Assembly (NCBI RefSeq): GCF_000429545.1
Contig: NZ_AUCB01000021.1
Location: 1-64,000, forward strand
Source: Arenibacter certesii DSM 19833
Lineage (GTDB): Bacteria; Bacteroidota; Bacteroidia; Flavobacteriales; Flavobacteriaceae
Length of the DNA stretch: 64,000 bases
Direction: 5' to 3'
Within the stretch, counting starts at the first letter, position 1. Every line of letters begins with the position of its first letter. The position numbers and the translations under genes are program-made. Positions 37,199-40,885 of the stretch are shown here, in pieces. The notes beneath the pieces are model-generated. The model had not been told where the DNA came from. It was given only the letters and a program-made list of their open reading frames with translations, and ran no database searches.

Positions 37199-39091
37199 TT
37201 AGTACAACACCCTGAATTTAATAGTATTGTCTATCTTTTTTAAGGCTTTAATAACATCTTTATTGTACTTCTTGTCCAGATCCGTTATAACATAGCCCAA
37301 CTCACTATCTGTAGACAAATACTGTCCTGAAATATTCATGTTAAAACGCGCCAAAACTTCGTTGATTTTAGCCATTACTCCAGGCACATTTTTATGGATG
37401 TGCAAAAAGCGATGTGCATTATTTTGTTTTGGCAATCTAATATTCGGAAAATTAACGGCATCTACAGTATTCCCAGAATTTATATAATCCTTTATTTTAT
37501 TGGGAACAAATTCTGCAATATCTCGTTGTGCCTCTTCGGTACTTCCTCCAATATGCGGAGTTAGTATTACATTCTGCAAACCTTTTAGTTCAGTATAAAA
37601 TTCACCATTGCCTCTAGGTTCTTCAGGGAATACATCTATAGCAGCACCAGCGATCTTACCGCTTTTTAATGCAGCTGCCAAAGCGGCAATATCCACAACA
37701 AAACCTCTAGATAAGTTTACAAAGAGCGCTCCATCTCTCATTTGATTGATTTCTCGCTCTCCTATAAAATTATAATTGGCCTTATTATCATCTATATGCA
37801 AGGTAACCACGTCTGAGATATTCAAAAGTTCTTCCAAGGAATTGCACCTTGTAGCATTCCCCAAAGCAAGCTGATCACCAACATCGTAGTAATAGACTCG
37901 CATACCAAGGGCTTCCGCCAACACGGATAGTTGTTTACCAATATTACCATATCCTACAATCCCTAAGTTCTTACCTCTAACTTCTTTAGAGTTTGCAGCA
38001 GTTTTATTCCACTCCCCCGCATGAATTTCCGTACTTCGAGGGAAAATACTCCTCATCAGCATAATAATCTCTCCAATGGCAAGCTCTACCACGGATCTGG
38101 TATTACTATAGGGTGCGTTAAATACAGCCACCCCTCTTTTTTTACATGCTTCTAAATCTATTTGGGTGGTCCCAATACAAAAAGCGCCCACTACCATTAA
38201 TTTTTCTGCAGCTTCCAAAACCTTCTCGGTAACCTGGGTCTTAGAACGTATTCCCAGTACATGGACATCCTTTACTTTTTCAATAAGTTCTTCCTCTGTT
38301 AAACTATGAGTAAGGAGCTCTACAGAAAAACCTTCTGCTGAAAGGGCGTCAAAGGCATCTGAATGGATGTTTTCCAATAATAAAATCTTGATTCTGTTTT
38401 TGGGGTAGGATATTTTTCTAGGCAATTTATTTACAAATAAAAATTCATCTAAATTAGGCGTAATATAATCTGCATTCTTTGCAGCCTTCTCTCTGTGCAC
38501 ATTCTCGGTATAAGCGAAAAACTTATCGGCAATACCAGCCTCACGCATTACATAATCGCTATAACCATCACCAATGACCTGAACTTCTCCTTGAAGTCCC
38601 AGGTTTTTTAGGCACTCTATTTTCCCGTTATGTGAGGACAATACATTATCTTCATCAAAACCGATTATATTTCCATCTTGATCAAATTTAAAAGTGTTTG
38701 CATACACCCTATCTGCAGGAATATTGTACGCCTCCACTATAGGATCTATAAACTCTTTAAATCCAGCAGAAATCACATAAATATCATCCGAATAGGTCTC
38801 AAAAAACTCTTTATTGGATTCTATTGATTTGGAAATTTTGTGGCGCAGTAATTCTACCAATTCCACCAAATCATCTTTATGGGCATTCAATAGCTTAATG
38901 CGCTTTTCCAAGGATTCCGTAAACGAGATATCACCATCTATTCCTAAATTGGTGATTTTTTGAATCTCCTCGATTATTTCATCCTTATCACTTCTATCTT
39001 TTAGTGTGATTTCGGCCAAAACATCCAGGGCTTCTACCCTAGTAAGAGTACTGTCAAAATCAAACACATATTTTCTGCTTTCTACAACCAT
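37199..39091 (-). CDS. serA: Fused phosphoserine phosphatase-like / D-3-phosphoglycerate dehydrogenase
   Basis: A 630-residue fusion in one uninterrupted frame. Residues 1-225 are a HAD domain with DFDSTLT (11-17), VISAGFKEF and VIGDGYSDYVM, the motifs of SerB-type phosphoserine phosphatases. Residues about 230-545 are the SerA dehydrogenase with GIVGYGNIGKQ for NAD binding and the arginine/glutamate/histidine triad (SRGFVVD, EEPRGNG, LTPHIGGST). Residues 550-630 are an ACT domain (HKNVPGVMAKINEVL). It may catalyse both the first and last steps of serine synthesis. Such fusions are known in Bacteroidetes. SerC is not in the window. Confidence 0.94.
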   Translation of the reverse strand: MVVESRKYVFDFDSTLTRVEALDVLAEITLKDRSDKDEIIEEIQKITNLGIDGDISFTESLEKRIKLLNAHKDDLVELVELLRHKISKSIESNKEFFETYSDDIYVISAGFKEFIDPIVEAYNIPADRVYANTFKFDQDGNIIGFDEDNVLSSHNGKIECLKNLGLQGEVQVIGDGYSDYVMREAGIADKFFAYTENVHREKAAKNADYITPNLDEFLFVNKLPRKISYPKNRIKILLLENIHSDAFDALSAEGFSVELLTHSLTEEELIEKVKDVHVLGIRSKTQVTEKVLEAAEKLMVVGAFCIGTTQIDLEACKKRGVAVFNAPYSNTRSVVELAIGEIIMLMRSIFPRSTEIHAGEWNKTAANSKEVRGKNLGIVGYGNIGKQLSVLAEALGMRVYYYDVGDQLALGNATRCNSLEELLNISDVVTLHIDDNKANYNFIGEREINQMRDGALFVNLSRGFVVDIAALAAALKSGKIAGAAIDVFPEEPRGNGEFYTELKGLQNVILTPHIGGSTEEAQRDIAEFVPNKIKDYINSGNTVDAVNFPNIRLPKQNNAHRFLHIHKNVPGVMAKINEVLARFNMNISGQYLSTDSELGYVITDLDKKYNKDVIKALKKIDNTIKFRVLY

Positions 39092-39407: not shown

Positions 39408-40109
39408 TTATCTTGTCCACATATAAAGCAAACCAGTAATGATAGCCAACCCAAAACTCAATAAGGTACCAATCAAAATATATTCTGTAAGCTTACGGGA
39501 ATTACTTTCCTTAAGATCGTTAAATCTAAATACAGACTTAGCGGTTATTAACAATCCTATTGCCTCCCAACGCCCTAAAATGATAAAGGTAAGCACAAAC
39601 AAGCGCTCTATAATGCCAATATACTTTCCGGCATTTGGAAGGGATTTATGATCTAACTCTATCTTATCCGACATCCCACCTAAAAGCTTTGCCATTACTA
39701 TGGATGATGGGAACCCTACAAATACCACCGCCGTTACCAATGCCCAATCAATTTCTTTTATCAAACTTAAGGTATGCTCCATAAAATTTGAATAATAAGC
39801 ACAACTATAAAGTACTGCAATATGAAATAGTTGATCTATAAAGAAGGGAATGGCCTTGTTCTTAAAATAAGGGTTAGCGTACAGTTTACCAAGGTCTATA
39901 AGATAATGTGATACAGCAATCAGTACCGCCCATCTCCAGAGATTTAAATCCCATAACAGTAGCATTACCAGTCCAAAATGAATCAACGTATGAAGGTATA
40001 AGTAACTAGATGTGATTTTATTGACCTCCTTATGAACCACCCATCGGTTAGGTTGCAGCATAAAATCCCCAATTAGATGGGCCAATAAAAGTGTAGTAAA
40101 TAATATCAT
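39408..40109 (-). CDS. DUF3307 family membrane protein
   Basis: A 233-residue membrane protein. The start LFTTLLLAHLIGDFMLQPNRWVVHK is the DUF3307 signature, with histidine and aspartate in the first helix (LLAHLIGDF). Several more helices follow. Function unknown. It starts 4 bp inside the end of the SatD-like gene, a pairing found in other bacteria, which implies the two work together. Confidence 0.88.
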   Translation of the reverse strand: MILFTTLLLAHLIGDFMLQPNRWVVHKEVNKITSSYLYLHTLIHFGLVMLLLWDLNLWRWAVLIAVSHYLIDLGKLYANPYFKNKAIPFFIDQLFHIAVLYSCAYYSNFMEHTLSLIKEIDWALVTAVVFVGFPSSIVMAKLLGGMSDKIELDHKSLPNAGKYIGIIERLFVLTFIILGRWEAIGLLITAKSVFRFNDLKESNSRKLTEYILIGTLLSFGLAIITGLLYMWTR

Positions 40110-40717
40110 ACCTTTATTTCCTTGATTACTGATTCATAATACTGCAACAGATCCTCCACCAAATCCATTCTTGCTCGGTTTAGGCGCTGACTCACTGCAG
40201 ATTGATTTATACCCAAACGATCGGCAATTTGTTGTTGCGATTCGGTTGGATTCCCTAAGGTTAACTGCACTATTTCCGCAGAAACTACAGACCAACTATC
40301 CATAAAGTCCAACGCAAGGCTTAAAATGAGATTTAGGGTCCTGTCCTCTTTTTCGGTCCCAGTTACTACCGCAAGGTTTAGCTTTTTCTCCCTTAATGTT
40401 TCAAAAATTCTTCCCGAACGTTGGTGTGCCTCACCATTAGACTGACTTACGCTACTTGCTAAAAAAGTCACCTTCCCCAACCCTATGCCCATCCTAACAT
40501 CCAAAGGCTTTATCTGCTTAATAATGGCCTTAATCTGTATAGCCATGCGCAATGCATTTTCTGGCGTAGTTTTTATCTGAAATTCATCTCCTCTATAGAT
40601 TTCCCAGTCCCCAGGAGTCTCACCTGTATTTACCAAGTATGCTTTTAAAGCCCTCATCCAATCGGATGATTGATCTATTTGAGAGTTAATTATATCACCT
40701 GTAATAATTGCTACCAT
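40106..40717 (-). CDS. SatD-like regulatory protein
   Basis: A 203-residue protein. It opens MVAIITGDIINSQ and RALKAYLVNTGETPGDWEIYRGDEFQIKT (read as separate motifs), typical of the SatD family. Its C-terminal end has an HTH of sigma-region-4 type: QQIADRLGINQSAVSQRLNRA at about 160-180 (20 residues: QQIADRLGINQSAVSQRLNR). It likely binds DNA and senses a signal with its N-terminal part. The tandem AGC-N6-GCT repeats just upstream are candidate binding sites, which suggests autoregulation. Genes overlap with DUF3307 by 4 bp. Confidence 0.82.
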   Translation of the reverse strand: MVAIITGDIINSQIDQSSDWMRALKAYLVNTGETPGDWEIYRGDEFQIKTTPENALRMAIQIKAIIKQIKPLDVRMGIGLGKVTFLASSVSQSNGEAHQRSGRIFETLREKKLNLAVVTGTEKEDRTLNLILSLALDFMDSWSVVSAEIVQLTLGNPTESQQQIADRLGINQSAVSQRLNRARMDLVEDLLQYYESVIKEIKV

Positions 40718-40724
40718 ATTAATA

Positions 40725-40771
40725 AGCTATAAAGCTAATATACAATAATATAAGCTAAAGTGCTAATATAC
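40725..40771 (-). promoter_or_regulatory. Tandem operator-like repeat upstream of satD-like gene
   Basis: Two 19-bp copies, AGCTATAAAGCTAATATAC (40725-40743) and AGCTAAAGTGCTAATATAC (40753-40771), 28 bp apart. Each contains the inverted repeat AGC-N6-GCT. They begin 8 bp before the start codon of the HTH-containing protein, where a repressor would block its own promoter. Confidence 0.6.
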
Positions 40772-40885
40772 CAAAATATAAGTGAAATACCTAATACTCA
40801 CCATGTTCATATAAATGACCCTCAGAAACAAAATCATCATGCAACCGAATATCACGATAGCAAAGCCAGCAGAAAGTTAGTTCGA

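Follow-up and report, generated by a model that had tools for sequence, protein, structure and literature searches.

Several described systems resemble parts of the gene pair analysed here. In the available text of the two Panoptes reports (PMC12657218, PMC12657230), a palm enzyme can hold a membrane effector silent, following a toxin-antitoxin logic. The SatD-DUF3307 pair is like Panoptes (mCpol/OptS and 2TMbeta/OptE) in forming a two-gene operon (a prediction in the case of SatD) for a palm-fold protein and a membrane protein, with a 4-bp overlap between the genes and direct adjacency in 78/80 loci (the best 80 of 586). It is unlike Panoptes in that SatD has a helix-turn-helix (HTH) domain and tandem candidate operators, and in that the model of its partner is all-helical, in place of the soluble beta-barrel domain of 2TMbeta. 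Autoregulated toxin-antitoxin operons, of which HipB provides an example, share with the SatD locus the small operon and a regulator acting on palindromes in its own promoter (again predicted for SatD), whereas the palm domain and the 28–29 bp period of the operators set SatD apart from them. The SatD of the Streptococcus mutans sat operon is comparable in its family name, the one element of this comparison. To our knowledge, neither a product nor a defence role has been described for SatD.

According to one study (PMC11323703), transposon screens of Streptococcus pyogenes emm1, emm28, and emm49 score satD as essential, although only 178/249 genomes carry it, and the S. mutans sat genes are associated with tolerance to acid. 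A lysozyme study, in the portion available (PMC5786311), has satD about two-fold lower in one strain. The system had been called not understood in the initial annotation of this DNA, and our literature search found no functional account of SatD-DUF3307: there was no paper with both SatD and DUF3307, SatD was absent among the matches listed for its combination with GGDEF, palm domain, or mCpol, and the bare word SatD gave no title about this protein among the matches listed. In the text fragments returned, DUF3307 appears as a phage annotation and "SatD family" in an annotation study. PMC4886424, which deals with cyclase-like proteins of Bacteroidetes, was set aside: its subject is DUF2652, and the word SatD is absent from the text available.

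The locus described below lies in a stretch of 64,000 nucleotides of Arenibacter certesii (the window). The pair is best read as a palm-HTH regulator controlling its own operon, probably by repression and possibly gated by a nucleotide, together with a membrane partner. We give a probability of roughly 0.7 to this explanation as a whole, i.e., that SatD regulates the transcription of its own operon by binding tandem palindromes and is accompanied by a membrane partner. A SatD dimer would bind, through the C-terminal HTH, two to five palindromes of ~20 bp with a 28–29 bp period directly before satD, and the bound protein would probably repress satD and the overlapping partner gene. Residue 177 of the recognition helix would largely determine the half-site letters. 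The palm domain, with D8 and D44, would probably bind a nucleotide with metal, as a sensor or as an enzyme, and the nucleotide-bound palm would tune dimerisation and hence DNA binding, whilst the partner would act at the membrane by means of a core found in all three partner types compared. The repeats, their spacing, the covariation, the gene pairing, the predicted fold, and the conserved Asp pair are computed results; direct binding, the dimeric state of SatD, the sign of regulation, the nucleotide ligand, and the activity of the partner are what we infer. So far, SatD and DUF3307 have been family names with no function attached, and this explanation gives them a testable one.

The tandem palindromes and the SatD recognition helix

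The satD gene (40106–40717, minus strand, with the ATG at 40715–40717) encodes a 203-aa protein composed of an N-terminal nucleotide-cyclase-like palm and a C-terminal HTH, as indicated by Pfam and the AF2 model. In the Pfam scan, the product reaches 43.3 bits against the SatD family PF16264 (cut-off 29) and its HTH reaches 26.9 bits against Sigma70_r4 (cut-off 24.1). The partner gene (39408–40109, minus strand, 233 aa) starts within the satD stop region, giving the overlap of 4 bp. Its assignment as a DUF3307 membrane protein is based on PF11750 (94.3 bits for residues 3–111, cut-off 23), the all-helical AF2 model, and the co-occurrence with SatD. Both gene assignments of the initial annotation, an HTH-containing SatD-like gene and a DUF3307 membrane partner, are thereby confirmed.

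On the plus strand, AGCTATAAAGCTAATATAC is located at 40726–40744 and AGCTAAAGTGCTAATATAC at 40754–40772, 28 bp apart, and both finish in GCTAATATAC. The two repeats with AGC-N6-GCT before satD, their identical ends, and their spacing had all been read correctly from the sequence, with the given end position one base off. The repeats are better described as palindromes ATWAGC-N6-GCTWAT of ~20 bp each. Candidate operator palindrome 1, the nearest to the ATG, spans 40721–40740 (the pattern itself occupies 40722–40739) and stops 3 nt short of the satD ATG. Candidate palindrome 2 (40749–40768, pattern at 40750–40767) is placed 28 bp upstream of palindrome 1, and a degenerate candidate palindrome 3 (40777–40796) a further 28 bp upstream; no strand is assigned to the three. 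The third palindrome, the cyclase-like palm fold, and the common membrane core of the partners are additions to the initial annotation.

The layout upstream of satD was compared across relatives by a motif-free score for two alike palindromes, calculated for 140-bp upstream stretches with the spacing left free between 21 and 45 bp. The 110 pooled loci comprise 103 distinct upstreams, related to one another, with a mean score of 23.8, compared to 18.3 for 309 dinucleotide shuffles and 14.0 for 167 upstreams of other ORFs (the weaker of the two controls, because many of them are coding and have a lower AT content). Scores of at least 24 are observed for 70/103 satD upstreams, 2/309 shuffles, and 0/167 other-ORF upstreams. 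The spacing in the 89 upstreams scoring at least 22 is 28 bp in 84 cases, 29 in four, and 36 in one; the other 14/103 upstreams score below 22. The distance from the best pair to the ATG varies between 1 and 88 nt across the loci, whereas the spacing stays constant at 28.

The number of sites was counted in 154 distinct upstreams, taken from 163 (7/60 loci of one set were left out). The threshold for support was missed by 39/154 upstreams. In the 115 supported loci, sites counted with a separate, arbitrary threshold form arrays of two (41), three (55), four (17), or five (2). For two loci, L094 and L141, visual inspection of the 110 bp preceding satD shows no array. The satD-DUF3307 pair of L094 (4890–9000) departs from the usual gene order, with no PEMT, rdgB, or DEAD gene within 10 kb, and is perhaps a moved copy that has lost its operators.

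The half-site letters are clade-specific: TTAGC prevails in the Arenibacter-Maribacter-Zobellia clade, Flavobacterium has TTAC, and TTCC, ATCGG, ATCTG, TATCAC, TATGC, and others occur elsewhere (the half-site phase of a periodic array can be read in two ways, and the phase weighting G/C pairs was used). A search for the repeat before orthologous pairs had been set as a test beforehand. Now that it has been run, the layout stands (palindromes of ~20 bp, 28–29 bp apart) and the letters do not; the arrangement is general and the letters are specific to each clade.

More distant SatD proteins were represented by 32 loci (27 of 30 phylum loci and five plasmid loci, from Halorientalis, Haloplanus, Natronosalvus, Sphingomonas, and Agrobacterium), with a spacing of 19–45 bp allowed. 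The upstreams of 26/32 beat all of their 40 shuffles; six do not, by far the worst being L041 (16/40). At 28 loci no more than one of 40 shuffles is as good, and the spacing there is 29 bp in 21, 28 in six, and 27 in one. The best pairs of L042, L045, and L046 are unlike the visible repeats of their relatives; L045 is nevertheless one of the 26, and L046 one of the 28. The repeat layout thus reaches beyond the Flavobacteriia clade, to haloarchaeal and proteobacterial plasmids. On two haloarchaeal plasmids (L233 and L234, 1474–2891 in each) the SatD-DUF3307 genes overlap at their ends and are preceded by GTTCG/CGAAC palindromes 29 bp apart. Within family f5, the operator period is 29 and not 28 at several of the loci L033, L199, L201, L202, L227, L229, and L230, and 28 at L195 and L200; most of the distant subfamilies share 29.

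Were SatD the protein that binds the array, its recognition helix would have to vary along with the letters. The covariation was measured for 68 representatives with less than 75% identity, selected from the 115 supported of the 154 upstreams. Operator similarity follows the identity of residues 171–182 when palm identity is controlled for (partial r 0.355; 0/2000 permutations as high). For palm identity, with the helix controlled for, the partial r is 0.060 (327/2000 permutations as high). The best 11-residue sliding windows lie within residues 163–187 of SatD, and the predicted recognition helix, which is helical in the AF2 model, comprises residues 172–181 (40175–40204, minus strand). The strongest single column is 177, in the middle of this helix, with a partial r of 0.573 given whole-protein identity (0.332 for the next column). 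In the window this position is Q177 (codon 40187–40189, minus strand), the main predicted specificity residue.

With respect to the letters themselves, Q at position 177 occurs with WWAG in 35/37 representatives, R with TTAC in 5/8, K with TTCC in 4/5, and E or D with ATC in 8/10; the other eight representatives have A, F, G, H, L, S, or T. The exceptions with a basic residue are R with TTCC (L177), R with ATC (L212), and unclassed letters for R (L197) and K (L194), and the remaining ones are E with WWAG (L207), E with ATGC (L223), and Q with ATC (L031 and L117). Pairs that are path-independent on the palm tree differ in operator class in 10/14 cases when their residue-177 classes differ, compared to 2/25 when these are the same (2/9 at matched distance). 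By parsimony on the same tree, the residue class changes 21 times and the operator class 19 times (29.1 and 28.3 after shuffling). Both labels track the tree, and the raw association is therefore in part a matter of shared descent.

Since the letters covary with the recognition helix, SatD itself is the most likely binder, and the description of the repeats as operator-like is strengthened. On this comparative evidence, we predict with high confidence that SatD binds the array directly. Residue 177 would largely set the letters of the half-site. The even 28–29 bp period suggests contacts between adjacent dimers. Cooperative binding, proposed in the initial annotation, fits the conserved period and the arrays of two to five copies. 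A defined operator layout is thus kept from Flavobacteriia to haloarchaeal plasmids, with one residue predicted to set the DNA specificity.

Palm domain, membrane partner, and gene neighbourhood

The AF2 model of SatD has a mean pLDDT of 94.4 and an N-terminal palm domain (residues ~1–120; 40358–40717, minus strand), delimited by fold matches. In Foldseek and VIA-align the model matches class III adenylyl/guanylyl cyclases, GGDEF domains, GTP cyclohydrolase III, and Cas10/Cmr2; the same kinds of protein (with Cas10-type subunits) fill the top 50 VIA-align rows, at Z 9.5–11.2, where rows within 1 Z unit are tied. The first row is GTP cyclohydrolase III (MJ0145; Z 11.2, rmsd 2.8, 108 residues), an alignment that stops at residue 122 of the SatD model and leaves the HTH uncovered. 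The class III cyclases and GGDEF domains (best rows at Z 10–11) resemble SatD in the predicted fold and in the acidic residues of beta-1 and of the beta-hairpin, but not in sequence at the profile level. When PDB chains were searched with the SatD profile (hmmsearch, E limit 10), the 20 sequences retrieved were mostly HTH proteins, with no cyclase among them, and Pfam Guanylate_cyc stayed at 13.2 bits (E 0.066), short of its cut-off of 21.9. We do not file SatD as a cyclase; its N-terminal half is predicted, from the model, to have the nucleotide-cyclase/GGDEF/Cas10 palm fold.

The residues D8 (codon 40694–40696, minus strand) and D44 (codon 40586–40588, minus strand) are both Asp in 186/186 aligned SatD sequences. 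The former lies on strand beta-1 and the latter in the beta2-beta3 hairpin, as placed by the secondary structure of the model, with D44 between strands 38–41 and 45–50 in a hairpin that reads RGDEF (as in the window) or TLGDEF. Both are predicted metal ligands, at what we take to be the metal-ligand positions of the cyclase/GGDEF superfamily. Also invariant in the 186 sequences are S12, G43, and G95, while residue 45 is Glu in 138 sequences and Ser in 41. The fold, together with the invariance of D8 and D44, argues for nucleotide or metal binding and not for a particular product; we put the chance that the palm domain has a nucleotide ligand at about even.

The model of the partner consists of helices only, with no beta-barrel (mean pLDDT 88.2, pTM 0.68), and Foldseek found no PDB chain for it under E 1. 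In the loci examined from other SatD subfamilies, the downstream membrane proteins have ~240–250 or 105–115 residues, and four that were scanned, including a 137-aa one counted with them, have no Pfam match above the cut-off. In hhalign, the DUF3307 partner is related to the 245-aa type with 99.1% (residues 119–230) and to the short type with 94.0% (residues 164–231), and these two types to each other with 88.7%. The comparison shows a putative C-terminal membrane core that the three SatD-partner types have in common, with a consensus close to G..IG.LER..., A-K, R, Y.LIGTLLS. In the window it corresponds to residues ~160–233 of the partner (39411–39632, minus strand). Pfam DUF3307 covers only residues 3–111, so that the core is unnamed in Pfam, and it ties together partners that Pfam leaves unconnected. 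Membrane proteins with such a core are found downstream of satD at L035, L037, L044, L048, L050, L052, L054, L055, L058, and L060.

Several other assignments were considered for the partner. A channel-like pore in its C-terminal half (VIA-align rows with TRP and Kv/Nav chains and with transporters) is not claimed, because the Z of only 5–6 is inside the noise range for helical models. The N-terminal half of DUF3307 was compared, without finding support for a YdjM-type enzyme, to the metal hydrolase YdjM (PF04307), which gave 0.3% in hhalign against nine family members from relatives and is also absent from the Pfam matches of the partner, and to DUF6122, which gave 6.6%. A phage origin was discarded, no phage record matching the window proteins or the SatD of L037, and the search for SatD relatives on viral contigs gave no confirmed case. 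BFVD contains phage DUF3307 proteins of 119–131 aa (E 0.06–0.3) and PHROGs has phrog_2470 (1.3e-11, partner residues 1–106), so the N-terminal half of DUF3307 does have phage relatives.

SatD is present in 35/60 relatives and, by profile search, in 134/395 genomes of the order; in the phylum, PF16264 is found in 79/395 genomes (70 above the cut-off), and in 0/14 control genomes. DUF3307 occurs in 136/395 genomes of the order, including all 134 with SatD, the only two without it being G722 (a fragment) and G724. Two SatD matches each are found in G112, G220, G228, G259, G267, G285, G330, and G338. In the public genomes, for which the 80 best loci from 586 relatives were used, the closest named relatives are Arenibacter species. 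The DUF3307 gene directly follows satD on the same strand at all of these 80 loci (tblastn) except L117, at a contig end, and L126, which has no DUF3307. At L126 (5001–7703) the gene next to satD is a serA-type fusion; SatD alone is thus tolerated there.

The order DEAD gene, rdgB, PEMT, satD, DUF3307, serA-type fusion is kept in 52/55 of the loci longer than 10 kb that are not Flavobacterium-like. Flavobacterium-like loci retain the pair in 16/16 cases, without the serA, PEMT, rdgB, and DEAD neighbours. The fusion of the window (37199–39091, minus strand, 630 aa) combines a HAD phosphatase, a D-3-phosphoglycerate dehydrogenase, and an ACT-type domain, i.e., it is SerB-SerA-like, and such a fusion is near the pair in 54/55 non-Flavobacterium loci longer than 10 kb.

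The presence of a palm-fold protein beside a membrane gene, as in the available text on Panoptes (PMC12657218, PMC12657230), brings up a toxin-antitoxin or guard module, in which SatD would silence a harmful membrane partner through repression and perhaps also through a nucleotide product. By analogy with mCpol and 2TMbeta, the loss of SatD or of its nucleotide would free the partner. We regard both the module and this detail of it as unlikely. The main support is the essentiality of satD in Streptococcus pyogenes, in only 178/249 genomes of which it is found (PMC11323703, available text), the pattern expected if SatD represses a harmful neighbour; the module offers a testable explanation of why satD is essential in strains of a species in which many strains are without it. 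The retention of satD without DUF3307 at one locus (L126) and the occurrence of the pair on plasmids point in the same direction. On the other hand, the core chromosomal gene order around the pair is fixed (52/55 loci), unlike in a defence island, the modelled partner is built of helices and lacks a beta-barrel, and the S. mutans sat genes are tied to acid tolerance in the text available of PMC11323703. A known defence system was looked for in PADLOC (2023 library) and discarded: there was no clear match, the best being the HTH profile mad1 for SatD (E 0.031), with none for DUF3307. A broader form, a signalling or guard module across bacteria and archaea in which a palm nucleotide would set the coating of the array by SatD and hence the production of a harmful effector, is in our opinion also doubtful, if marginally less so. 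If true, the pair would be a transcriptional counterpart of Panoptes, with an effector core hitherto unnamed.

Sign of regulation and sites elsewhere in the genome

The consensus of the Bacteroidota-type -7 box is TAnnTTTG. This motif is found in 63/115 upstreams (21.4 expected from shuffles), and in 9/16 examples it directly touches or overlaps the right arm of a site, an arrangement compatible with repression; in the window there is no TAnnTTTG box before satD. We consider it likely that SatD represses its operon rather than activates it. Positive autoregulation, with SatD bound to the same array, would be conceivable for the Flavobacterium-like loci, where the best pair ends 33–88 bp before the ATG and, in the examples, a candidate -7 box lies downstream of it, although in some of them weaker copies are nearer. 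The resemblance of the SatD HTH to sigma-70 region 4 would also suit an activator. Against this, a site ends only a few bp from the ATG in the Arenibacter, Maribacter, and Zobellia loci, and elsewhere the -7-like TATATTTG adjoins the right arm of a site, as expected for occlusion. Activation seems improbable as compared to autorepression by SatD.

In the window, ATWAGC-N6-GCTWAT with at most one mismatch has three matches (0.94 expected; three were reached in 8/100 shuffles), and the only exact palindromes are the two before satD. The 4.99-Mb genome contains exact palindromes in four places, and in 66 places with at most one mismatch, versus 35 for a reversed control pattern. That another regulator binds the repeats, with satD merely a regulated gene, is very unlikely: exact sites like those of the window do exist elsewhere in the genome, but singly, the letters track the recognition helix of SatD beyond the relatedness of the palm domain, and the layout accompanies satD onto archaeal and proteobacterial plasmids. 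A role of the repeats at the RNA level (as hairpins or as an attenuator preceding the start codon), or their origin as general promoter or insertion debris, is still less credible, for although the palindromes are able to form hairpins and the last one in the window ends 3 nt before the ATG, the distance to the ATG ranges over 1–88 nt with the spacing at 28 throughout, the letters covary with a protein helix, and exact sites adjoin one another only at satD. As to the two other exact places in the genome, the third is a terminator-like hairpin followed by T, between two genes that we presume to be rplQ and carA, and the fourth is within an ORF, leaving satD as the one place where exact sites stand side by side.
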